Source: a virus. From it: a stretch of 38,529 nucleotides of DNA. The notes beneath the pieces were generated by a model. The model searched no databases. It saw nothing but the letters and a program-made list of their open reading frames with translations, and was not told the origin of the DNA. Positions 1-38,529 of the stretch are shown in pieces; the first letter of the stretch is position 1, and each line of letters starts with the position of its first letter. The translations under genes and the position numbers were made by a program. The stretch is from positions 1-38,529 of IMG/VR virus record IMGVR_UViG_3300036985_003510. One strand, 5' to 3'.

Positions 1-127
1 TGCTGCGCTTCCTCGCGTGCCCCGCCCTCCGCGTGCGCTTCCACGATGTCAGTCAACACCTTGTGGACATCGGCAGGCAACAGCCACGGCTCACAGCATA
101 GCGCGGTCATGCACCTGATCAATCTGG
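1..127. repeat. Terminal direct repeat, left copy (circular contig overlap)
   Basis: These 127 bases are identical to the last 127 of the window. An exact overlap of this length at contig ends is what de Bruijn assemblers leave when a molecule is circular or circularly permuted (127 is a common maximum k-mer). It contains the 5' end of the S49 protease gene a second time, so that gene should be counted once. A true 127-bp terminal repeat of a linear virion is a less likely alternative. Confidence 0.95.
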
Positions 128-2028: not shown

Positions 2029-2057
2029 TTGTAATCAGCAAACGGGCATGATACATG
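2029..2057 (+). promoter_or_regulatory. Rightward promoter PA (extended -10)
   Basis: TTGTAA at 2029-2034, a 17-nt spacer and TACATG at 2052-2057, with a TG at 2049-2050 that makes an extended -10. The predicted start is near 2064, two bases before the first helix of the structured RNA at 2066. The hexamers are weak matches to consensus, but the arrangement is the same as at four other rightward promoters in this genome. Confidence 0.6.
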
Positions 2058-2065
2058 AGGGGTAT

Positions 2066-2156
2066 GCAAGACAGAAAAAGGATTTGTCCCCGTGGTCGCC
2101 GGTCATCCGGTAATTCTTCCCGTCAGGGATAGTCTTGCAGGACTGCGGGGATTTTC
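2066..2156 (+). ncRNA. Pseudoknotted leader RNA, copy A
   Basis: Helix P1 pairs GCAAGAC (2066-2072) with GTCTTGC (2132-2138). Helix P2 pairs TCCCCG (2087-2092) with CGGGGA (2146-2151). Because the order is P1a-P2a-P1b-P2b, the fold is a pseudoknot. Inside lie hairpin A, GCCGG-UCAU-CCGGU (2098-2111), and hairpin B, UUCCC-GUCA-GGGAU (2117-2130). A TTTTC run follows P2, and the start codon of the next gene lies at 2174 after an AGGGAGG ribosome site. Copies at 10051 and 18373 keep every helix with different bases. Function is unknown; I infer a cis-acting leader. Confidence 0.85.
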
Positions 2157-2173: not shown

Positions 2174-2791
2174 ATGGGTACGGAGTCTAAACAGGATTCG
2201 GCACTGGTCGGGATCCAGCAGGTAGAATTGACATTGAGGGGGCGGCCCGGTTCCCCGCTTGTCATCCATGCCTTTGCTGAAAAGGCAAAGCAGGAGATAC
2301 GGGATAAGCAGCAGAAGAAGGCAAAGAAGGCCAAAGAACAGCGTGACCCCCATGCCGAGTTTCTGGCATCGCGGTACGTTGACGAACAGGGACGTGAATG
2401 TGCCCCTATAACAGCACTTAAGAAAAGCATTATCACGGCGGCGACGGCGTTTGAAGACGTGACTAAGGTCGGATTGCGTCAAGCCGTGTTCGTTGATTCG
2501 GTTGCCGTGCCGGGAGCGGCTCTTGTGCCTATCGAAAAGCATGACGGTACGCTTGCTGTAGGGGTCATGCGCGAGGATGCCGTTACTATCGGAATCAACA
2601 CGCGAGGTCTAACGTATCGGCCCGAGTACAAGGAATGGCAGTTGAGAATCAGGGTTGAGTTTAACCCGCGCATCGTGAGCAAGGAGCAGTTGCTTGCTCT
2701 GGTAGATCAGGCTGGCTGGGGTGTCGGCATTTGCGAAGGCAGGCCGGAACGGTCAAGCGCGTTGGGTTGGGGTCGGTTCATGAGGGTGTAG
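2174..2791 (+). CDS. Conserved phage protein of unknown function, single-gene rightward unit
   Basis: About 205 residues, starting at an ATG with an AGGGAGG site 4-5 bases upstream. A Lys/Gln-rich charged helix (about residues 35-60, many KAK and KKAK steps) is followed by a compact alpha/beta C-terminal part ending in a Gly-Arg-Phe motif. I recall similar phage proteins near recombination genes, but I cannot assign a biochemical role; a nucleic-acid-binding RAMP-like or annealing fold is only a guess. It has its own promoter, leader RNA, G-rich 3' region and terminator, and it is antisense to the leftward late genes, so it looks like a moron: an independently expressed added gene. Confidence 0.8.
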   Translation: MGTESKQDSALVGIQQVELTLRGRPGSPLVIHAFAEKAKQEIRDKQQKKAKKAKEQRDPHAEFLASRYVDEQGRECAPITALKKSIITAATAFEDVTKVGLRQAVFVDSVAVPGAALVPIEKHDGTLAVGVMREDAVTIGINTRGLTYRPEYKEWQLRIRVEFNPRIVSKEQLLALVDQAGWGVGICEGRPERSSALGWGRFMRV

Positions 2792-3084: not shown

Positions 3085-3118
3085 TCAGGGGAGGACTAAC
3101 ACTCCCCTGATTTTCTTT
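3085..3118 (+). terminator. Rho-independent terminator of the 2174 unit
   Basis: A perfect 9-bp stem, TCAGGGGAG (3085-3093) with CTCCCCTGA (3102-3110), has an 8-base loop and is followed by TTTTCTTT. This is a classical intrinsic terminator for rightward transcription. There is no T-run on the other side, so leftward transcripts should pass. The left arm overlaps the stop codon of the leftward HTH gene. Confidence 0.92.
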
Positions 3119-9580: not shown

Positions 9581-9777
9581 CGTTCTCCTTTGTTTGGCTC
9601 CGTCCACCCTCGCTCTATCAGCGCGGCCCTATCACGGGCAACGATGTCGGCTGAGTTGTTTATTGACATCTGTAACCTCAACAGCAAAGTCTCCTGCGGG
9701 TTGGAGTCGCCCTCGCGCACCAGTTCCCGGAGTGCATCAGCCACCATGTCGCGGGCTATGTTCTCGGGGTTACTCAT
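9577..9777 (-). CDS. Small helical protein, 66 residues
   Basis: Start chosen at 9777, where the ATG overlaps the stop of the ribbon-helix-helix gene and an AGGA lies upstream. It is acidic and helical (residues 3-45), with an ALRELVREGD turn. The residue pattern resembles small phage proteins of unknown role. It ends overlapping the next gene. Confidence 0.6.
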   Translation of the reverse strand: MSNPENIARDMVADALRELVREGDSNPQETLLLRLQMSINNSADIVARDRAALIERGWTEPNKGER

Positions 9778-9946
9778 CGTCGTTCCTGCTATCAAGATCC
9801 CCATGAAGCAATCCAGTTGCCTTAGCAATCAAATTATTGACCCATGCACTTAGCGTCATCCTGCTGACTTCCGCATATTCTTCGGCGGCCTTGACGACAT
9901 CTTTATCCAGTGAAAACGATCTCACTTCCTTCGTACTCTTACTCAT
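9770..9946 (-). CDS. Ribbon-helix-helix regulator (Arc/MetJ-like)
   Basis: 58 residues. An N-terminal strand (EVRSFSLDKD) is followed by helix DVVKAAEEYAEVS and helix LSAWVNNLIAKA, the classic ribbon-helix-helix dimer pattern in which the strand contacts the DNA major groove. It is the first gene of the leftward arm and lies back-to-back with rightward promoter PB, so it is well placed to repress one or both arms and its own gene. It is the only regulator of this kind I see; there is no lambda CI-type repressor. Confidence 0.75.
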   Translation of the reverse strand: MSKSTKEVRSFSLDKDVVKAAEEYAEVSRMTLSAWVNNLIAKATGLLHGDLDSRNDDE

Positions 9947-10014: not shown

Positions 10015-10043
10015 TTGCACCTTTAACACACTTCTGCTAGTCT
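10015..10043 (+). promoter_or_regulatory. Rightward promoter PB (extended -10)
   Basis: TTGCAC at 10015-10020, a 17-nt spacer, TG at 10035-10036 and TAGTCT at 10038-10043. The predicted start near 10050 is one base before the first helix of leader RNA copy B. It should drive the recombination and replication operon. Confidence 0.7.
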
Positions 10044-10050
10044 CTCTCTT

Positions 10051-10147
10051 GTGCCACAGAAAAGAACAACATTGCCCCGCGTGGGTGCCGGTTATCCGGT
10101 CACCATTTCTCGTCCGAGGACTGTGGCACGCCTGCGCGGGGTCTTTC
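10051..10147 (+). ncRNA. Pseudoknotted leader RNA, copy B
   Basis: P1 pairs GTGCCACAG (10051-10059) with CTGTGGCAC (10121-10129), nine perfect pairs. P2 pairs CCCCGCG (10075-10081) with CGCGGGG (10135-10141), seven pairs. Hairpin A is GCCGG-UUAU-CCGGU (10087-10100) and hairpin B is UUCUC-GUCC-GAGGA (10107-10120). TCTTTC follows P2. The order and spacing equal copies A and C while P1 shares no sequence with them. It leads the main early operon; the next start codon is at 10162. Confidence 0.88.
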
Positions 10148-10161
10148 ATGAGGTAATCACA

Positions 10162-10245
10162 ATGACACTCTTCCGGCGTCGCAACAGGAGAACGGGCAGC
10201 AGGTTGCCTGTGTGGTTTTGGGAGAAACTCCTTGAACACGTTTGA
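10162..10245 (+). CDS. 27-residue basic leader peptide
   Basis: The first ORF after leader RNA copy B, with GAGG eight bases upstream. It is strongly basic at the N-terminus (FRRRNRRTG) and ends with aromatic residues (VWFWEKLLEH). Its 3' end overlaps the TTG start of the nuclease gene, so its translation probably feeds that gene. It may be a true small protein or only a coupling peptide. Confidence 0.5.
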   Translation: MTLFRRRNRRTGSRLPVWFWEKLLEHV

Positions 10246-10780
10246 CGAGGCGTCTCACACGTACACGATCACCGGGCGCAAGGTGCCGAGCGTGACCCAA
10301 ATCATCACGGCAGTTTTTGGCCCACCTCGTAACGCGGCGAGTGACTGGCACCTGGAGCGGGGCAGGGCTGTCCATGCGTGCTGCGCGATGATTGCGCGGG
10401 GGATCGAGTTTGACCACGATCCGGCGATTGACGGGCAGGTGCGGGCGTGCCGGAAGTTCTTCCGGGAGTTGAATCCGTGGGTGTCGATTGTCGAACGTCA
10501 GGGATACGACGAGACGCGAATGTACGCGGGTACCTGCGATGCTGTCGTGTTGCTCAACGACGCACGTATCGTCATTGACTGGAAATCGAGTCTCTCGGCA
10601 ACCGAGGGAATCCAGTTGGGAGGTTACGGGCAATTATTTAACGTGTCGAAAGGAATGTCAGTGGTGTTAGGTGATGATGGGCAATATCATTGCAGCAAGG
10701 TCTACGACTTGAAGCGATGGGTGTCGCGGTTCAATGCGTGCCTAACAGTGAACGGGATAAAAGAGGAGTTGGGAATATGA
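10232..10780 (+). CDS. Cas4/RecB-like PD-(D/E)XK exonuclease
   Basis: 182 residues starting at a TTG inside the leader peptide gene. The PD-(D/E)XK nuclease set is visible: His 48 in GRAVHACC, Asp 103 in AGTCDAVV, and Asp 116-x-Lys 118 in IDWKSS, followed by a QLGGYGQLF helix. The His before the core and the QxxxY-like helix are typical of the RecB/Cas4/lambda-exonuclease group. It probably resects DNA ends for single-strand annealing recombination together with the downstream genes. Its stop overlaps the next ATG. Confidence 0.85.
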   Translation: MNTFDEASHTYTITGRKVPSVTQIITAVFGPPRNAASDWHLERGRAVHACCAMIARGIEFDHDPAIDGQVRACRKFFRELNPWVSIVERQGYDETRMYAGTCDAVVLLNDARIVIDWKSSLSATEGIQLGGYGQLFNVSKGMSVVLGDDGQYHCSKVYDLKRWVSRFNACLTVNGIKEELGI

Positions 10781-11508
10781 ACGAGGTAATTGATATTGAA
10801 TTGGTAGTGAACGAAACTCAAGTCACAATCGAGGAGCCTATCAAGTTGGCCCTTGTCGGAGACCTGAAACCGATTGCGGATAGAATGGCCGCTTACCATC
10901 AGGAGGTAACTGAGGCTGTTATATCCACAGAGGGAGACGCCAAAGATGCCGCCGAATGTTGCGACAATATCGCGGCAGACATCAAGACGGTGAAAGACCA
11001 TGAAGTCCTGTCGCGAATCACTGACGGCCTTTTCAAACTGCATCGCCGATGGACAGGATTACGCGACGCCATAGTTGCGCCCCTTGAAGCCGACCGGAAG
11101 ACGCTCAAGAATAAGGTCATTGCGTGGCAGGAGAATGAACGAATGAAGGCCGAAGCGTTGCAAAGGAAACTCCAGGCTGACGCTGACGAGAAGGCGCGGC
11201 GTGAAAGGGAAGCGCTGGAAAAGAAAGCGGCGAGCGTAAAGAAGGTAGAGACTCGAGAGCGACACCTTGAAGCCGCCGCAGAAGTTGTCGCGCCTGTCGT
11301 CTATGTTGCGGCCCCGAAGTCGAGTCTTAGGGTGTCCCGCGTGTGGGCGGTGACATCCATCAATCAAGATGAGTTCTTTACGGCACTGGCAACACATCCC
11401 GAAATGAGGGGCTATGTTGAAATCAAGCAGGCATCTTTGCAGCGAAGCAAGGCGGCGAATCAGGCATTGACTGTGCCGGGGGTCAGGTTCGATCAGGTGG
11501 TTAGGTAG
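10777..11508 (+). CDS. Coiled-coil recombination-module protein
   Basis: 243 residues from an ATG overlapping the nuclease stop (ATGA). A long helical region (about residues 30-170) has heptad-like Leu/Ala spacing and a very charged EKARREREALEKK stretch; the C-terminal 70 residues look globular. I have seen proteins of this layout next to phage exonuclease and annealing genes, where a Gam-like or accessory role is often suspected. I cannot confirm a role. It is the second gene of the recombination operon. Confidence 0.7.
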   Translation: MNEVIDIELVVNETQVTIEEPIKLALVGDLKPIADRMAAYHQEVTEAVISTEGDAKDAAECCDNIAADIKTVKDHEVLSRITDGLFKLHRRWTGLRDAIVAPLEADRKTLKNKVIAWQENERMKAEALQRKLQADADEKARREREALEKKAASVKKVETRERHLEAAAEVVAPVVYVAAPKSSLRVSRVWAVTSINQDEFFTALATHPEMRGYVEIKQASLQRSKAANQALTVPGVRFDQVVR

Positions 11509-11548
11509 CAGAGTCTGGATTGAGCGTCAGGAAGTAGGGGAGGACAGA

Positions 11549-11749
11549 ATGAAGGTATCAATGATGGTTACGTACGGGGAAACGGAAATCAAGGAACTGC
11601 TGGCGAAACATCACCGGGACACGTTTGGAAATGCGCCGAATGGAATGCACTGGGTTGTCACGAAGTCATATTCGGAATGGGAGGTTGAGGCGGTCGAGGA
11701 TGACATTGACCAGCCGGAAAAGATTGAAGACGCAACGGCAGCGAAGTAA
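11549..11749 (+). CDS. Small protein, 66 residues
   Basis: Start supported by GGGGAGGACAGA before the ATG. The first 50 residues look like a small alpha/beta unit (EIKELLAKHH helix, then WVVTKSYSEWEVEAV strands), followed by an acidic tail. It lies between the coiled-coil and annealing genes with short gaps. Unrecognised. Confidence 0.7.
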   Translation: MKVSMMVTYGETEIKELLAKHHRDTFGNAPNGMHWVVTKSYSEWEVEAVEDDIDQPEKIEDATAAK

Positions 11750-11767
11750 ACCGAAAGGAATCAGAAT

Positions 11768-12613
11768 ATGAGTGAAGAACTACAGGTAGTCAACAGCGGC
11801 AGCATGAGTCTCAAGCAAATCGGGGATAGGGTCAACCTTGTCCACCAGGTACTTGAAAAGGTGCTCAAGAAAGGTACGCACTACGGAACATTGCCGGGGT
11901 GCGGAAACAAGATGGTGCTCCTCAAGCCGGGGGCCGACGTGCTTGCAATGACATTCAGACTCGCGCCGCAGTTCAAGATCGAACGGAGCGACATGGAGAA
12001 CGGTCACAGGGAATATGATGTTACCTGTTCCATGTACGGGTCTGACGGCTCGCTTCTCGGTCAGGGTGTAGGGAGTGCATCCACGATGGAGAAGAAGTAC
12101 CGTTACAGGAAGAACGAAAGCGGGGCAAAGATCGAAAATGAGGACATTGCCGACTGCTACAACACGGTTCTCAAAATGGCAAAGAAGCGGGCGCATGTTG
12201 ACGCCACCTTGACAGTCACAGGTGCCGGGGATCTCTTCACCCAGGACTTGATCGAGGATGAGGACGAACAACCTAAGCCCCCCGTCACCATGCCCACACC
12301 GAAGGCCGCGCCGGGAGCGTTTGTCCCCGAAGGCATGCCGGAGCATGATACGCGGTTGCCACTGTCCACGCCGGCAGACGGGAACATGGGCGACGTGACC
12401 GGGATGCTACAGGAAGTCAATGTCAAGGAAGGCACTGCGAAGAACGGGAAGCCGTGGACACGGTACGGCCTGATAGTGGATGGCGAGACGTACGGCACGT
12501 TTGACAAGAATCTCTACAATGGTGCCCTTGAACTGGTCAACCAGAAGGTGTGGCTTGAGGTGGAGACCAAGGGCAAGTTCAAGACGGTGATGAATCTGGG
12601 ACTCCAGAGATAG
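11768..12613 (+). CDS. Putative annealing/ssDNA-binding protein with C-terminal OB fold
   Basis: 281 residues with an AAAGGAA site. Residues 1-160 belong to a recurring phage family: GTHYGTLPG, then KPGADVLAMTFRL, TMEKKYRYR and VLKMAKKRAHVDA motifs. The KKYRYR and MAKKRA segments resemble Rad52/Erf-type annealing proteins in style, but I cannot prove homology. Residues about 205-281, after a Pro-rich linker, read as an OB-fold ssDNA-binding domain (GDVTGMLQEV ... WLEVETKG). With the exonuclease two genes upstream this looks like an exonuclease plus annealing system. Confidence 0.65.
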   Translation: MSEELQVVNSGSMSLKQIGDRVNLVHQVLEKVLKKGTHYGTLPGCGNKMVLLKPGADVLAMTFRLAPQFKIERSDMENGHREYDVTCSMYGSDGSLLGQGVGSASTMEKKYRYRKNESGAKIENEDIADCYNTVLKMAKKRAHVDATLTVTGAGDLFTQDLIEDEDEQPKPPVTMPTPKAAPGAFVPEGMPEHDTRLPLSTPADGNMGDVTGMLQEVNVKEGTAKNGKPWTRYGLIVDGETYGTFDKNLYNGALELVNQKVWLEVETKGKFKTVMNLGLQR

Positions 12614-12619
12614 CAAACG

Positions 12620-12683
12620 CCCCCAGCCGGTCCTTACCCTCTAAATGTGCTACCACACAACGAGCAGTCGGGACCGGCGGGGG
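12620..12683 (+). other. Intergenic long hairpin in the replication operon
   Basis: CCCCC-A-GCCGGTCC (12620-12633) pairs with GGACCGGC-GGGGG (12671-12683), thirteen pairs with one bulged A. The loop of 37 bases holds a smaller TGTG-CTAC-CACA hairpin. No T-run follows, so it is not a standard terminator. It ends about 11 bases before the start of the 12695 gene and may control that gene's translation or RNA processing between the two cistrons. Confidence 0.7.
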
Positions 12684-12694
12684 ATGGAGGGTGT

Positions 12695-12895
12695 ATGATC
12701 GTAATTCAAGATGATGTCTGGCGGGCTGAATGTATCGCAGGAATGGGATGGGATAGCGACTGCACGGTACAGGTCTACCCGATTGACTGTGCTGATTATG
12801 TGACGTATGAATACCCAAATCGAAACACTGCAATAAAACAATACAAGATCATTTTAGACGCGTGGCAACAAGAAATTGTGCGAATTGCGAGGTAA
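12695..12895 (+). CDS. Small protein, 66 residues
   Basis: ATG at 12695 after GGAGGGTGT; longer in-frame readings run through the intergenic hairpin and are rejected. It is mixed alpha/beta with an N-terminal strand (IVIQDD) and a C-terminal helix (residues 46-63). No motif is recognisable. It directly follows the hairpin at 12620-12683, which probably sets its expression. Confidence 0.6.
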   Translation: MIVIQDDVWRAECIAGMGWDSDCTVQVYPIDCADYVTYEYPNRNTAIKQYKIILDAWQQEIVRIAR

Positions 12896-12898
12896 GCC

Positions 12899-13258
12899 AT
12901 GAATGACGAATCCTGGCTAGTCGGGTTACTGAACAAGCGGCCCCTCGACTCAATCCGCGTGCTGCTGGATCTTGTCGGGGCAGGGCTGGCACGTGGCGAG
13001 TGCAGCGCGAATGACGTTGCATCGTATGTCAGCGAACCGAACACCATAGGCTGTGCATTCCGCGTCCTCAAGCGGTACGGGTTTGTCCAGTCAGATCGCC
13101 GCATCAAGCCTGTGGACAAGTGCAAGCATGGCCGCCCCTTGTACGTGTGGACCCTTGTAGACCGGGGGCAGGCCGAGGTGTTCTTGTCGGCCTTGCGCCG
13201 TGTGCTGGTGGTTAGGGAGCCGTCTGAGGGCGGCAGTCAGTTGTTGATGAGGATGTAG
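12899..13258 (+). CDS. Winged-helix DNA-binding-like protein
   Basis: 119 residues. The region 8-95 reads as a winged helix: DSIRVLLDLVGAGLARGE, SANDVASYVSEP, TIGCAFRVLKRYGFV as the three helices, then a basic wing (KHGRPLYVWTLVDRG). Likely a small regulator or a replication accessory that contacts DNA. The stop TAG is followed immediately by an ATG in the next reading frame used by the helicase ORF. Confidence 0.6.
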   Translation: MNDESWLVGLLNKRPLDSIRVLLDLVGAGLARGECSANDVASYVSEPNTIGCAFRVLKRYGFVQSDRRIKPVDKCKHGRPLYVWTLVDRGQAEVFLSALRRVLVVREPSEGGSQLLMRM

Positions 13259-14836
13259 ATGACCCCCACCCAACAGGCATACTCACGGGCACTGGATGAG
13301 GCGGTGAAGGTGATTGAGAGGGAGCGTCTTTCCCTGTCCTTGCCGACTTCCCGGACACGTCCTATAGGCGTATGTCCACCCACAGGGGCAAAGGATACGG
13401 CAGGGGCGGGGATTATAAACGAAAGGATGGAAATGAATTATCAAGAGTTCATAAAGGCCAAATCTCAAGCAGGAGAAAATCAGGGGTTCAATCCTCTATG
13501 GGTACCCGATTTTCTCTTCGACTTCCAAAAGAGTCTAGTCGAATGGGCAACACAGAAAGGGCGGGCGGCTATCTTTGCGGATTGTGGACTTGGCAAAACT
13601 CCAATGCAACTCGTATGGGCTGAGAACGTGTGCCGCAAAACTGACGGCAAGGTATTGATACTTACACCTCTAGCCGTATCAGGTCAGACAGTAAGAGAGG
13701 CCGAGAAGTTTGGGATTGATTGCAAGCAATCGAGAGACGGAAAGGTCATGCCGAGAATCACAGTGACGAACTATGAGAAACTTCATCTATTCAATTCAAC
13801 GGACTTCGCCGGATGCGTGTGCGATGAAAGCAGCATACTGAAAAACCCTGATGGTGTTACCAAATCAGAGGTGACGCACTTCATGCGTAAAATGCCGTTC
13901 CGATTATTGTGTACGGCTACTGCTGCGCCGAATGACTACATCGAACTTGGAACGTCAAGCGAGGCCATAGGTGATCTTGGTTTCGTAGATATGCTTGGAC
14001 GGTTCTTCAAGAATAATCAGAACACCATCCGTCCGTCCGTATATCGGCATAGAGGGCAAGACTTCTCCGCACTAGAGGAAGGGGCAAAGTGGAGATTCCG
14101 AGGACACGCAGAGAAGGAGTTTTGGCGGTGGATATGTTCCTGGGCGCGAGCGTGTCGCAATCCTTCCGACATGGGATTTGATGACGCTAGATTCATTTTG
14201 CCGCCACTTCAAATGAGGGAACATATCATCCGTGCGAGTAAGCCGCTTGAGGGTTATCTTTTTGACATGCCCGCAGTAGGACTGCAAGAGCAACGGTCAG
14301 AAAGGAGTCGAACCATTGACGAGCGAGTAGAACTAGCCGCAGACCTTGTGAACACTTCCGGTGCTCCGGCTATCTGTTGGGGGTATCTCAACACAGAATG
14401 CGACCTCCTAGAAAAGTTGATTCCTGATGCTGTCCAAGTATCAGGAAACGATAGCGACGAACAGAAAGAAGAATCATTCGCTGGATTCACTGACGGCAAA
14501 ATCAGGGTGCTTGTCACTAAGCCTGTGATCGGTTCATTTGGCATGAACTGGCAACACTGTTCGCATCAAACATTCTTCCCCTCGCATAGTTTTGAGCAAT
14601 TCTATCAAGCGGTTCGCCGCAGTTGGAGATTTGGCCAGACTAAGCCTGTGCGAATTGACATTATAGCGTCCGAGGGAGAACGGGGAGTCCTGAAAAGCAT
14701 TGAACGCAAGACCGCGCAAGCCGAGGTTATGTTTTCAAATCTAGTCGCGTTAATGAATAAAGAGTTGCGAATCGAGAAACGAAAAGACACAAACAACAAA
14801 ATGGAGGTGCCGTCATGGGTGTCAACAAACAAGTAG
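13259..14836 (+). CDS. SNF2-like DEAD/DEAH-superfamily helicase
   Basis: 525 residues from the ATG at 13259. Walker A FADCGLGKT (about 107-114), motif II CDESS (188-192), TATAAP (219-224) as motif III, and a C-terminal QAVRRSWRFGQ (motif VI) define a SNF2-type superfamily 2 ATPase. The homologous core begins at MNYQEF near residue 59. An internal ATG at 13433 with GAAAGG upstream may be the real start; the first 58 residues are open and also have a good ribosome site, so both starts are possible. It precedes a methyltransferase, a pairing seen in many phage replication modules, where it likely remodels DNA for replication or recombination. Confidence 0.88.
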   Translation: MTPTQQAYSRALDEAVKVIERERLSLSLPTSRTRPIGVCPPTGAKDTAGAGIINERMEMNYQEFIKAKSQAGENQGFNPLWVPDFLFDFQKSLVEWATQKGRAAIFADCGLGKTPMQLVWAENVCRKTDGKVLILTPLAVSGQTVREAEKFGIDCKQSRDGKVMPRITVTNYEKLHLFNSTDFAGCVCDESSILKNPDGVTKSEVTHFMRKMPFRLLCTATAAPNDYIELGTSSEAIGDLGFVDMLGRFFKNNQNTIRPSVYRHRGQDFSALEEGAKWRFRGHAEKEFWRWICSWARACRNPSDMGFDDARFILPPLQMREHIIRASKPLEGYLFDMPAVGLQEQRSERSRTIDERVELAADLVNTSGAPAICWGYLNTECDLLEKLIPDAVQVSGNDSDEQKEESFAGFTDGKIRVLVTKPVIGSFGMNWQHCSHQTFFPSHSFEQFYQAVRRSWRFGQTKPVRIDIIASEGERGVLKSIERKTAQAEVMFSNLVALMNKELRIEKRKDTNNKMEVPSWVSTNK

Positions 14837-15801
14837 TGACAGAGAAGTACGGGATATATAATGCGGATTGTATCGAGGTTATGCGTGATCTTCCCGCCGG
14901 GTCAGTTGACATGAGTATATATTCCCCGCCGTTTTGCGGTCTCTATAATTATTCGTCCGATGATCGGGACTTGTCAAACTGCCGGACGTATATGGAGTTT
15001 TTCGATCACTACGATTTTGTGATTGCCGAGATTGCGCGGGTCACAAAGCCGGGGAGAATATCGGGCGTTCATGTCATGGATGTTCCTGGCAAGGGCAACG
15101 GCGAAACAGCGCGTATGGGTTGCGGTGCGAATGTAGGAACGGGATTGATTGACTTCCCTGGGGATGTAATCCGCGCACACGAGAAACACGGCTTTGCTTT
15201 TTGCGGGAGACGAGCGATATGGAAAGAACCGCTTGGAGTTCGCAACAGGACAATGGCGAAGGGGCTTGCACATAAACAGATTGTTGATGATTCAACGCTG
15301 ACCGATGTTGCGAGTGCTGACTATCTGTTGATGTTCCGAAATAAGGGAGAGAACGCACAACCAGTGAGTCATCCGACCGGCCTGTTGAATTACGCCGGGG
15401 AACGTCAGATTCCCCATGACCTGCTCAGATACAAGGGATGGACCGGCAACCAGATAGAGAACCGATACTCACATTGGATCTGGCGTCAATACGCTTCTTC
15501 GGTATGGGATGATGTGCGCATTGACCGCGTGTTGCCGTTCAAGGATAGCAAAGAAGATGACGACGAGAAGCACGTCCACCCCCTCCAACTGGATGTAATC
15601 GAGCGTTGTGTGATACTATGGAGCAACCCCGGCGAGACTGTCCTGACCCCTTTTATGGGCGTCGGGTCGGAGGTATACGGGGCTGTCATCAACGGACGCC
15701 GGGGGATAGGTGTAGAGTTGAAGCCGTCATATTTCAAGCAAGCGGTCCTGAACATGAAGGACGCGGAGACGAAACACGAGCAGGATCACTTGTTGATATG
15801 A
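14815..15801 (+). CDS. DNA methyltransferase, SPPF-type (N4-cytosine/N6-adenine)
   Basis: 328 residues with GGAGG before the ATG, overlapping the helicase end by 22 bases. The catalytic motif IV is SPPF (37-40), typical of beta-class amino-methyltransferases. The SAM-binding motif I TPFMGVGSE lies near the C-terminus with the IGVEL motif after it, so the motif order (IV before I) is that of beta-class enzymes. It probably methylates phage DNA against host restriction. No cognate restriction enzyme is nearby. Confidence 0.88.
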   Translation: MGVNKQVVTEKYGIYNADCIEVMRDLPAGSVDMSIYSPPFCGLYNYSSDDRDLSNCRTYMEFFDHYDFVIAEIARVTKPGRISGVHVMDVPGKGNGETARMGCGANVGTGLIDFPGDVIRAHEKHGFAFCGRRAIWKEPLGVRNRTMAKGLAHKQIVDDSTLTDVASADYLLMFRNKGENAQPVSHPTGLLNYAGERQIPHDLLRYKGWTGNQIENRYSHWIWRQYASSVWDDVRIDRVLPFKDSKEDDDEKHVHPLQLDVIERCVILWSNPGETVLTPFMGVGSEVYGAVINGRRGIGVELKPSYFKQAVLNMKDAETKHEQDHLLI

Positions 15802-15809
15802 GGCAATAA

Positions 15810-16613
15810 ATGAACGCTGATTCATTCACAAAACTCTTCGGAACCATCCTGACATCCTCCATATGGAGCGAAGACGACAAAACCCGCATTATGTGGATCA
15901 CCCTGTTGGCCTGTGCCGATGCTGACGGATACTGTGCCGGTTCGGTTGTGGGCTTTGCGGTAATGGCCCGAATGAAACTGGAAGACGCTCAACAAGCCAT
16001 GGCGCGGCTTGAGTCGCCGGATCCACACTCCCGCACTACCGACCACGAGGGCAGGAGAATGTTGAAGGTTGACGGGGGATGGTTGCTTGTGAACTACACG
16101 AAATACAGGGAAATTGCCAAGAAAGAGGGTCGCCGGGAGTATTTGAGGATGAAACAGCGGGAGCATCGTTGTCAACAACTGTCAACAACTGTCAACAAAC
16201 CGTCAACAACTCCCTCTGCTTCTGTATCTGCTTCTTCTTCTGGCTCTTCTCTGGAAGGGGGATGCAAGGGGGTACCGACGCGGGATGAAGCAAAGGTGTA
16301 CGCGGCAGAATTGAAGTTTGAGGGATGGGAAGCGTGGTACGATCACTTCGAAAGCAACGGGTGGAAGGTATCGGGCAAGGCCCCCATGAAGGACTGGCGG
16401 GCCGCGATGAGGAATGGGAAGCGCATGGCGGGGCAGTTCACGGGCAAGACTGCCGGGGGTTCCAGGTTCCCTCCCAGCATCAAGGAACTGGTGGCGGTAC
16501 GCACACAACTACAGGCCGACCTTGCCTCGGCTGCCGATTGCGACAAACCCACCGATGAGATCCGCAAACGGATAGCAGACATCAACAGACAAATCAGCGA
16601 GGGGGGAAAATGA
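15810..16613 (+). CDS. Replication initiator-like protein with internal iterons
   Basis: 267 residues. Residues about 1-100 look like the winged-helix N-terminal domain of phage O/DnaD-type initiators (WITLLACADADGYCAGS, then AQQAMARLESPD and a GGWLLVNYTKYRE segment). A low-complexity Ser/Thr linker (about 122-152) separates it from a helical C-terminal part that could bind helicase loader or helicase (WEAWYDHFESNGW ... DWRAAMRNG). The linker DNA contains four GTCAACAA repeats, as lambda O contains its own origin. It lies downstream of helicase and methyltransferase in one operon. Confidence 0.7.
   Translation: MNADSFTKLFGTILTSSIWSEDDKTRIMWITLLACADADGYCAGSVVGFAVMARMKLEDAQQAMARLESPDPHSRTTDHEGRRMLKVDGGWLLVNYTKYREIAKKEGRREYLRMKQREHRCQQLSTTVNKPSTTPSASVSASSSGSSLEGGCKGVPTRDEAKVYAAELKFEGWEAWYDHFESNGWKVSGKAPMKDWRAAMRNGKRMAGQFTGKTAGGSRFPPSIKELVAVRTQLQADLASAADCDKPTDEIRKRIADINRQISEGGK
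16171..16209 (+). repeat. Four phased GTCAACAA iterons (candidate origin)
   Basis: GTCAACAA starts at 16171, 16181, 16191 and 16202, spaced 10, 10 and 11 bases, about one helical turn each. A pyrimidine-rich segment follows to about 16250. The position inside the initiator gene resembles lambda ori. The encoded Thr/Ser/Gln-rich linker could by itself produce such repetition, so an origin is inferred and not shown. Confidence 0.5.
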
Positions 16614-16885
16614 GCGAACACGTATCATCATGCGGGTTGTGTCGCCGGGGCTGGGTAGGCTTCTGGCCGCGTGAGAATCCACCGTACACGGCTGACCGGC
16701 TCATGGTAGGGCTGGCTGTAGACGTGCCGTGCCGGTGCAACCTGGGGCGCAACATGGGCCCGGACAAACATGGCAACAAGCCGGTGCCGGTTCCTGATTC
16801 TGTGTGGCGTGTGATCCAGAAACAGCACGCGGCATGGAGCGGGGCAGTCACGACACATAAGACGGTTGACGAGTGGGAGCCATGA
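16610..16885 (+). CDS. Small Cys-containing protein, 91 residues
   Basis: ATG overlaps the initiator stop (ATGA) after a strong GAGGGGGG. Cys residues in CGLCRRGW and PCRCNLG form a CxxC...CxC pattern compatible with one zinc site near the N-terminus. The C-terminal part (VWRVIQKQHAAW) is a helix. Position directly after the initiator suggests a replication accessory, but this is inference. Confidence 0.65.
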   Translation: MSEHVSSCGLCRRGWVGFWPRENPPYTADRLMVGLAVDVPCRCNLGRNMGPDKHGNKPVPVPDSVWRVIQKQHAAWSGAVTTHKTVDEWEP

Positions 16886-17451: not shown

Positions 17452-17481
17452 TTGACATAATGAATAACAATCTGCTAATGT
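17452..17481 (+). promoter_or_regulatory. Rightward promoter PD (near-consensus, extended -10)
   Basis: Consensus TTGACA at 17452-17457, an 18-nt spacer and TAATGT at 17476-17481, with TG at 17473-17474. Both hexamers are the same as in promoter PC at 18336. The predicted start is near 17488, followed by a GGAGG and the gene at 17512. Confidence 0.8.
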
Positions 17482-17511
17482 GTGCGTTGAAAGTGTTGGA
17501 GGAAAACCGAC

Positions 17512-18335: not shown

Positions 18336-18364
18336 TTGACATCTACAGAAGGATTTGATAATGT
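18336..18364 (+). promoter_or_regulatory. Rightward promoter PC (near-consensus, extended -10)
   Basis: TTGACA at 18336-18341, a 17-nt spacer and TAATGT at 18359-18364, with TG at 18356-18357. The predicted start near 18371 lies two bases before the first helix of leader RNA copy C. Confidence 0.82.
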
Positions 18365-18372
18365 TCTCTCAT

Positions 18373-18468
18373 GCAATCAGAAATGAACAAGAAGTTTTCC
18401 CGCTGGCCGCTGGTTATCCAGCACTCTTTCCCGCATGGGAACTGATTGCAGGGCTGGCGGGATTTTTC
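18373..18468 (+). ncRNA. Pseudoknotted leader RNA, copy C
   Basis: P1 pairs GCAATCAG (18373-18380) with CTGATTGC (18442-18449). P2 pairs TCCCGC (18398-18403) with GCGGGA (18457-18462). Hairpin A is GCUGG-UUAU-CCAGC (18409-18422), where the C-G pairs of copies A and B are replaced by U-A and the G-U by G-C. Hairpin B is UUCCC-GCAU-GGGAA (18428-18441). TTTTTC follows. The start codon of the HNH gene is at 18481 after TTGGAG. This copy provides the clearest compensatory changes. Confidence 0.88.
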
Positions 18469-18480
18469 TTGGAGACGCTC

Positions 18481-19071
18481 ATGCGCATACTTAAAGAGTG
18501 TAAACAGTGCGGCAATACATTCTTGGCAGACTCTAGCGAGATAAAGCGGGGCAGAGGTTTATACTGCGGGCGTTATTGTGCGTTTATTTCTTTACGCAAA
18601 AACAATATACAGCCAATCTTTTCCGAAGAAGACCAAGACATGGGGAAGATTCACTGGCACGCAAACAGTGATGGGTACCCAATGATAAATGTTCAGACAG
18701 GAACAAACTACAAGACCAGAAAAGCAGTCAAGGCGCATCGTATTGTATTGTCGAGAATGCTGAATAGACAATTATCCACTTCTGATATTTGCGACCATAT
18801 TAATCATGATAAAATGGATAATCGAAGACAGAATCTGCGGCTTTGTTCTTGGCAAGAAAATTGCCTCAACAGAGATCCAGCGACTCATCCTAGTCGTGGT
18901 GCATCATATCATAAGTACAGGAGAAAGTGGCAGGCAAGATGTCGCGTAGGCAAAGAGGTATATTGTGGATTATGGGACACCAAAGAGGAAGCCATGAAAG
19001 CGTCTGAACAAAAAAGACAGGAACTTATCGCCTCTACGGCCCTTATGATCGTGGAGAAGGGGGGAGTATGA
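18481..19071 (+). CDS. HNH endonuclease with AP2-like DNA-binding domain
   Basis: 196 residues; the ORF continues upstream through the leader RNA, but TTGGAG points to the ATG at 18481. An N-terminal zinc knuckle (CKQCG ... CGRYC) is followed by the HNH core AHRIVLSRML ... CDHINHDKMDN (about 85-114) and NLRLCS. The C-terminus (about 145-185) resembles an AP2-type DNA-binding domain (KWQARCRVGKEVYCGLWDT). This layout is typical of free-standing phage homing endonucleases. It is expressed from its own promoter and leader RNA. Its A+T-richer sequence suggests separate acquisition. Confidence 0.88.
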   Translation: MRILKECKQCGNTFLADSSEIKRGRGLYCGRYCAFISLRKNNIQPIFSEEDQDMGKIHWHANSDGYPMINVQTGTNYKTRKAVKAHRIVLSRMLNRQLSTSDICDHINHDKMDNRRQNLRLCSWQENCLNRDPATHPSRGASYHKYRRKWQARCRVGKEVYCGLWDTKEEAMKASEQKRQELIASTALMIVEKGGV

Positions 19072-37675: not shown

Positions 37676-38512
37676 CTATCTCCTCTTTTTGCTTTTACCT
37701 AATCCCGCCGCGATTTCTAACGCGGTGTTGTAACTAGTAATTTCGTCTATCAATCCGTTCTCCTTCGCTTCGACTGCGCCGAAAGACTGCCCCTGCATTA
37801 CATCGTCCGAGATGTTGCGCCCCCGCCCCGCCCGCACCGCTGCCTTGAAGTCTGCGCCCATCTTGTTGATTCGCGCCTGCAACATGTCTTCCTGTTCCCG
37901 CGTCAATTCTGTCCCCGGCAATCCCATGCCCTTATGCTTGCCTGACTTAAACAGGTTGAGTTTTACGCCCTCCATTGCCATTTGCCGGGAGCGGTCGAGA
38001 ATCGCCATGTATGCCCCGATTGATCCGATGTCAGCGGAGGTCATCGCGTAGATCAGGTCACATTGACTGGCCATCCAGTAGGCCGCTGAACCGATAAGGC
38101 CATCACCATAGGCCACGGTATACTTCTTCTGCCCGGCTGACTTGATCGCGGCGGCTACTTCCGGTGTTCCCATTGCCATGCCGCCAGGGGAATCGAAGAC
38201 CAACATCAGGGAATCAACCTCGTCGTCATCGCCCGCCGCCCGCACCATGCGCTCTAGAATGTCGCTGGAGGTCACGCCGCTATCGTAGAGCATGTCTGAA
38301 AACTTGCGCCCAATAACGCCCTGAACCGGGATTATCGCCGTATTCCCTTGGAGGGTGAATTGCCGCTTGCCGGGATTGGCGGGCATAGACTTGGCAAGGG
38401 CGTGCTGCGCTTCCTCGCGTGCCCCGCCCTCCGCGTGCGCTTCCACGATGTCAGTCAACACCTTGTGGACATCGGCAGGCAACAGCCACGGCTCACAGCA
38501 TAGCGCGGTCAT
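37676..38512 (-). CDS. S49-family head maturation protease (gpC-like)
   Basis: About 278 residues from ATG at 38512; a TTG at 38524 is an alternative without a better ribosome site. The SppA/S49 fold shows SPGG (about 108-111), the catalytic Ser in GSAAYWMAS (about 142), and the Lys in LFKSGKHK (about 189-194) as the general base of the Ser-Lys dyad. It processes scaffold and portal during head maturation. Unlike lambda gpC, no scaffold is fused at the C-terminus. The gene start repeats at 1-127. Confidence 0.9.
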   Translation of the reverse strand: MTALCCEPWLLPADVHKVLTDIVEAHAEGGAREEAQHALAKSMPANPGKRQFTLQGNTAIIPVQGVIGRKFSDMLYDSGVTSSDILERMVRAAGDDDEVDSLMLVFDSPGGMAMGTPEVAAAIKSAGQKKYTVAYGDGLIGSAAYWMASQCDLIYAMTSADIGSIGAYMAILDRSRQMAMEGVKLNLFKSGKHKGMGLPGTELTREQEDMLQARINKMGADFKAAVRAGRGRNISDDVMQGQSFGAVEAKENGLIDEITSYNTALEIAAGLGKSKKRR

Positions 38513-38529
38513 GCACCTGATCAATCTGG
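38403..38529. repeat. Terminal direct repeat, right copy (circular contig overlap)
   Basis: Exact copy of bases 1-127. Joining the two makes a circle of about 38,402 bp and connects the portal gene (minus strand, ending at 130) directly to the S49 protease gene (starting at 38512), which is the lambda B-C order. The biological continuity of gene order across the join supports circularity rather than a chance repeat. Confidence 0.95.

Follow-up and report, generated by a model that had tools for sequence, protein, structure and literature searches.

Copy B, a leader element at positions 10051 to 10147 of a 38.4-kb phage genome, is, as judged from its nucleotides, a real member of a family of phage 5'-end leader RNAs that includes two further copies in the same genome (A and C) and a homolog, L254, in another, distant phage. 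The family is conserved and apparently undescribed. Its members are predicted to fold into a pseudoknot whose second helix abuts a U-rich tail, and we tentatively read copy B and its family as cis-acting pseudoknot attenuators in which this helix and tail would act as the terminator, a reading to which we give slightly less than an even chance.

The leader element occurs three times in the genome

The window, which is the whole stretch of DNA that was analysed, corresponds to a virus record of 38,529 bases. It contains the leader element three times, always on the plus strand (Table 1). Copy B is 71% identical over 110 nt to the second copy (18365-18471), and a structural scan added the third copy, A. 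When the window was scanned with a descriptor that calls for two helices that cross, an internal hairpin and a T-rich tail, the three copies received the top ranks (B 25, C 25, and A 24), compared with at most 23 in ten dinucleotide shuffles. Both the alignment and the scan strengthen the claim of the first-pass annotation that a structured leader RNA is repeated in this genome. The reported RNA is thus real, but its description was incomplete, the pseudoknot, the 11-bp P2 and an invariant tandem wobble having been overlooked. The homolog in L254 is found in near-identical form in L255 and L258. Separately, the two 127-base ends of the window (1-127 and 38403-38529) are identical, and the genome is therefore likely to be complete, either circular or terminally redundant.

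Table 1. Positions of the leader elements, their predicted parts, promoters and neighboring genes in the window, followed by the structural relatives in other phages
Feature	Position	Strand	Remarks
Promoter-like site, copy A	2029-2057	+	TTGTAA, 17 nt, TACATG; weak; TG before -10; read directly
Copy A	2065-2156	+	P1 2065-2072/2132-2139; P2 2087-2097/2141-2151; P3 2098-2111; P4 2117-2129; tail UUUUC
Single rightward gene after copy A	2174-2791	+	phrog_4652, function not assigned
Sigma70-like promoter, copy B	10015-10043	+	TTGCAC 10015-10020, 17 nt, TAGTCT 10038-10043; read directly
Copy B, P1 5' strand	10051-10059	+	GUGCCACAG; P1 in minimum-energy fold of transcript to 10129
Copy B, junction J	10060-10074	+	A-rich (60% A)
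Copy B, P2 5' strand	10075-10085	+	CCCCGCGUGGG; conserved UGG inside
Copy B, P3 hairpin	10086-10102	+	Around GCCGGUUAUCCGG; UYAU loop conserved in A, B, C, L254
Copy B, P4 hairpin	10107-10120	+	UUCUCGUCCGAGGA; abuts P1 3' strand
Copy B, P1 3' strand (P1')	10121-10129	+	CUGUGGCAC
Copy B, P2 3' strand (P2')	10131-10141	+	CCUGCGCGGGG; 1 nt past P1'
Copy B, U-rich tail	10142-10147	+	UCUUUC; abuts P2'
27-residue ORF	10162-10245	+	MTLFRRRNRRTGSRLPVWFWEKLLEHV; overlaps nuclease ORF; not conserved with element
Exonuclease-like gene	10232-10780	+	phrog_298; first large gene of copy B operon
Rest of copy B operon	10777-16885	+	phrog_10477 exonuclease, phrog_10048 (RecT position), helicase, DNA methyltransferase, unknowns
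Promoter, copy C	18336-18364	+	TTGACA, 17 nt, TAATGT
Copy C	18372-18468	+	P1 18372-18380/18442-18450; P2 18398-18408/18452-18462; P3 18409-18422; P4 18428-18441; tail UUUUUC
HNH endonuclease gene	18481-19071	+	Directly after copy C
Relative L101			Precedes gene-A homolog
Relatives L145, L036, L044, L057, L236, L248, L182			Precede helicase homologs; L057 267 nt upstream
Relative L039			Precedes replication-type ORF
Relatives L072, L168, L049, L115			Further topology relatives

Copy B is predicted to form an H-type pseudoknot

In copy B, P1 consists of nine pairs and P2 of 11 contiguous pairs. Since P2 crosses P1, copy B is an H-type pseudoknot, with the P3 and P4 hairpins sitting between the P2 5' strand and P1'. 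This architecture extends to the whole family, in which P1 is 8-9 bp long and begins at approximately +1 with its 5' strand, P2 has 11-12 bp, P1' and P2' are separated by 0-1 nt, and J is 50-62% A. At the 3' end, the order is P2', U-rich tail, Shine-Dalgarno (SD) sequence and start codon, and AUUUUUAUUU is also found among the tails of the four-member family. The first-pass annotation had credited copy B with the strongest helices, a nine-pair P1 and a seven-pair P2. This is fair for P1, whose size was correct, but P2 has 11 pairs rather than seven and is about equally strong in all copies, with duplex energies of -19.0 (A), -21.6 (B), and -20.8 (C) kcal/mol.

For A, B and C, the minimum-free-energy (MFE) structure of the transcript ending at P1' consists of P1, P3 and P4, while in the full RNA nested folding favors P2, which is more stable once P2' is made. 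That the MFE structure of the full RNA contains P2 without P1 is because MFE folding cannot draw pseudoknots.

A homolog in a distant phage reveals covariation

L254 was retrieved by a pattern made from P3 and P4 only, and its P1 and P2 match the architecture with a different sequence. Its promoter (TTGACA-17-TAAAAT) is spaced such that P1 would start at +1, and its 3' part runs from a U5 tail through an SD to an ATG. P1 is paired in A, B, C and L254 although its sequence has diverged. When P2, P3 and P4 were aligned across these four sequences, standard pairs were found in 98.8% of the cells, with 13 double-change cells versus 4.8 in shuffles and a covariation score of 0.556 versus 0.236, neither value being equaled in any of 500 shuffles. 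In controls with slid partners, covariation drops to 0.06-0.14. One position in P2 even goes through AU, CG, GC and UA in the four sequences. With few sequences, three of which come from one genome, the covariation stems mainly from the comparison of B with C and from L254. Hence, P1 crosses P2 and both display compensatory changes, in addition to which the family is characterized by a P3 with a UYAU loop, P4, a U tail, and a tandem U.G/G.U in P2 that is invariant in the four sequences while neighboring pairs vary, with up to four types.

Conservation of the P3 loop, P4 and the tandem U.G/G.U, in an element that directly precedes the SD and ATG, is what would be expected of a protein-bound translational operator, with a phage or host RNA-binding protein on P2/P3/P4 blocking ribosome loading at the adjacent start. 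There is a precedent in the gene 32 mRNA of T4 and T2, which has a coaxially stacked autoregulatory pseudoknot in its leader (PMC3014915). However, such an operator has no need for a U tail, unrelated genes follow the same RNA, no protein is pointed to, and the SD is outside the helices in A, B, C and L254, which together make this explanation quite improbable. Moreover, the gene 32 pseudoknot serves one gene, lying 67 nt ahead of its start and binding its product, whereas our element precedes several unrelated genes, with P1 at +1 and a U tail.

Database and literature searches

A search of Rfam 15 gave no match over the whole window, and none at E<=5 for 10030-10170. The pattern CAGAAAN{8,26}TGGNNGCYGGTYATCCRG matched 14 times in IMG/VR and GTDB genomes, in no case with the anatomy of the element. 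When the B region and the L044, L168 and L254 elements were compared with phage records by DNA BLAST, no credible homolog was returned; one weak match in Enterococcus overlies a DUF1140 gene and was discarded. A covariance model scored highly only for A, B, C and L254 in approximately 2 Mb of phage loci, its three weak matches in approximately 800 bacterial genomes all lacking the anatomy. No strong element was found in four genomes of cultured phages that carry the helicase, and a literature search found no description of a phage pseudoknot attenuator. Since an energy-only general pseudoknot scan of 1.8 Mb barely separated real sequence from shuffles, it was not used alone. An HDV-like ribozyme, in which the strand order is similar, was set aside by reasoning since P1 is at the transcription start and nothing is left to be cleaved off.

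The element is predicted to begin at the transcription start

The spacing of the sigma70-like promoter upstream of copy B predicts a start at approximately 10050-10051. Its -35 box is weak, with 3/6 matches to the consensus, and the promoter is absent from a stricter promoter scan. The -35 motif is nevertheless found 36 nt before P1 in B, C and L254 alike, with TTGTAA at the same place in A, which supports the idea, put forward in the first-pass annotation, that the repeated leader probably begins at a promoter. When the family and its structural relatives (see below) are taken together, TTG[AC] is present 34-37 nt before P1 in 12 of 17 elements, compared with 0-4 in other zones of similar width (binomial p ~5e-8), two of the 17 (L072 and L049) having been picked or read with promoters in view. 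A promoter-like site at 17454-17482 (TTGACA-17-TAATGT) has no pseudoknot leader, showing that the element is absent from some rightward promoter-like sites.

With a promoter at one end, a terminator-like tail at the other and both RNA ends locked in helices, the element is a complete unit, which might suggest a free trans-acting small RNA, a 95-nt pseudoknot for which the downstream genes are incidental. We find this highly improbable because the interval from the element to the next start codon has no evident promoter of its own, the strand is always that of the following gene, and the helix sequences are free to change, which leaves little for target pairing.

The second helix resembles an intrinsic terminator

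Promoter spacing, pseudoknot topology, covariation, U tail and placement before start codons are all legible in the sequence, from which the structure is predicted. A GC-rich helix against a U-rich tract is the signature of an intrinsic terminator. P2 fits this signature, being GC-rich (11 bp, -19 to -22 kcal/mol) and abutted by a U tract, UCUUUC in copy B, which is in line with the terminator-like 3' end predicted earlier at 10142-10147; the loop of this putative terminator is far larger than that of a canonical one. The simplest reading of this resemblance is that the leader is able to end transcription at approximately 10142-10147.

In the attenuator reading, transcription would start at or beside the first base of P1, and P1, P3 and P4 would fold before P2. 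The emerging P2 3' strand would then pair with the P2 5' strand inside the P1 loop, generating an 11-bp GC-rich helix flush with the U-rich tract. The contiguity of P1' and P2' allows the two helices to stack, which would place the 5' end of the RNA at their junction. Whenever P2 forms, transcription would terminate at approximately 10142-10147 and release an RNA of approximately 95 nt, while a delayed or blocked P2 would allow a full mRNA to extend into the recombination/replication genes, the frequency of termination being set by P1 and the conserved parts. We infer that termination would happen at the leader, and that it would be conditional, with a factor or ligand that may read the tandem U.G/G.U of P2, the UYAU loop of P3, and P4. 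Several findings go against attenuation or fit it no better than other functions. The U tails are short, and several of the structural relatives have none. The P1, P1', P2 and P2' strands are mutually non-overlapping, which leaves no room for a classic terminator/antiterminator switch, and the sequence offers no cue for conditionality. Finally, the three copies precede unrelated genes (an unknown gene, an exonuclease and an HNH endonuclease), which a general leader function fits as well as a switch does.

A covarying pseudoknot family at the transcription start, with a terminator-like tail and three occurrences in one phage, lends itself to an easy in vitro test. If true, the attenuator reading would show by what means uncultured phages that have no obvious N- or Q-like system regulate access to their replication genes.

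Copy B heads the recombination and replication operon

As initially proposed, copy B heads the longest rightward gene run, which encodes an exonuclease, a RecT-position protein, a helicase and a methyltransferase. The placement of such a leader at the head of a recombination/replication operon finds a parallel in the distant phage, where the L254 RNA precedes genes for replication-initiator-like, methyltransferase, YqaJ-like nuclease and RecT-like proteins (named by reading ORFs, without a family search). The proposal that a 27-residue peptide takes part in regulation fared less well. The ORF exists and overlaps the nuclease ORF (10232-10780), but a regulatory role is not supported since the A, C and L254 elements run directly into a full gene. 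A short ORF conserved with the element, as in leader-peptide attenuators, was therefore not found among the four, the 27-residue ORF being present after B only.

Antitermination had also been envisaged. The HK022 put RNA, which consists of two stem-loops in approximately 70 nt, is similarly a phage early-operon leader next to a promoter, with more than one copy per genome (PMC9378689). A put-like RNA, which would bind RNA polymerase and enable it to resist terminators further downstream, would explain why the element is promoter-proximal, repeated at several early units, near put in length and without an obvious partner. However, put is composed of two stem-loops acting on RNA polymerase, whereas P1 and P2 cross in our element, and a GC-rich helix abutting a U tail favors termination. 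Nor are there strong downstream terminators to suppress. Only three terminator-like sites were found on the plus strand between 8.5 and 23.5 kb, with no excess over shuffles, two of which (at 10192 and 17593) are near or in the B operon and none of which is strong. Copy A precedes a lone gene followed by a terminator-like site (3085-3110) approximately 300 nt further on. Antitermination is thus not supported by the sparse terminator-like sites of the B operon and the setting of copy A, and we consider a put-like function very unlikely.

The phrog_4652 protein encoded after copy A is the product of a gene that stands alone in pointing rightward, its neighbors being structural genes that point leftward. 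It has homologs in approximately 25 IMG/VR contigs (67-87% identity) and in mycobacteriophages (approximately 33%), and the element is missing from most gene-A homologs. On the minus strand, a short ORF at 9770-9946, divergent from B and ribbon-helix-helix-like by eye, is a possible early regulator.

Relation to known leader RNAs

To our knowledge, RNA-only control of phage early operons is limited to a few cases, such as put and some Rfam leaders. SAM-II and other H-type pseudoknot riboswitches resemble our element in being compact 5'-leader pseudoknots whose last strand is at the expression platform. In S. meliloti, for example, the predicted SAM-II leaders either have a terminator at their end or occlude the SD (PMC9373788). 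In contrast, the phage element contains a pair of internal hairpins, starts with P1 at +1, precedes phage early genes and has no known ligand, and Rfam does not match it even when the threshold is relaxed. The genes downstream of the leader family are not metabolic and suggest no candidate ligand. Cyanophages carry cis-regulatory RNAs as well (wcaG, manA, glnA and PhotoRC-II), which are similarly leader-type (PMC9964418). These, however, belong to known Rfam families, none of which matches the window.

Leaders with a similar topology in other phages

In loci fetched via the helicase, terminase, gene A and RecT-position proteins, we found 13 further phage leaders that share the topology of the family but are unrelated to it in sequence, most of them upstream of replication genes. 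Among 167 helicase leaders, 13 have a pseudoknot score <=-40, compared with 3.3 in shuffles (maximum 7). Since the covariance model does not recognize the 13 relatives, they are described as sharing a topology, with no claim of common descent. L145 has the J motif GAAAA.GAAC and a P4-like hairpin in common with the family, by eye. U residues are enriched after P2' in the 17 elements (Fisher p = 3e-20), a value that is descriptive only since several relatives were chosen after inspection; the U tail is missing in L036, L101 and L145, and weak in L168. It is possible, although we find it rather doubtful, that these leaders represent a widespread class defined by topology, with a pseudoknot at +1 whose second helix is a terminator, heading replication/recombination operons and acting as a co-transcriptional switch in which the 5'-anchored helix would control formation of the terminator helix. 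If such a class holds, it provides a search rule for leaders missed by sequence methods.

The relatives also bear on whether the pseudoknot might instead protect the 5' end, which would be stacked between P1 and P2 and shield early mRNAs from the 5'-end-dependent decay pathways of RppH/RNase E or RNase J while leaving the ribosome site free. A passage in PMC9373788 cites such a case, a Legionella guanidine riboswitch, a 5'-UTR pseudoknot reported to be an RNase E roadblock that stabilizes the mRNA. With P1 at approximately +1, and with 0-1 nt separating P1' from P2' in 11 of the 17 elements, a buried 5' end is predicted, and in all 17 the length of J suffices to bridge the stacked helices (estimated at 0.47 nt per base pair). 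P2' ends shortly upstream of the start codon, and the relatives without a U tail would fit as well. We nevertheless judge protection unlikely, because it leaves the U-tail enrichment, the invariant tandem wobble and the P3/P4 sequence unexplained, and because the gap is 4-8 nt in six relatives.

Other arrangements were seen in these loci. In L123 and L130 (approximately 2840-2960), related leaders before gene-A homologs show two compensatory changes in a P2-like helix that covers the SD. L182 apparently has, by eye, two linked pseudoknots (500-620) before its helicase homolog. Long AGGC/GGCNNGGC-like repeats lie directly upstream of gene-A homologs in L102, L111, L114, L115, L118 and L119, and L185 contains repeated, iteron-like GTGTGAACGAAGT/GTTACCGAA units at 14633-14760.
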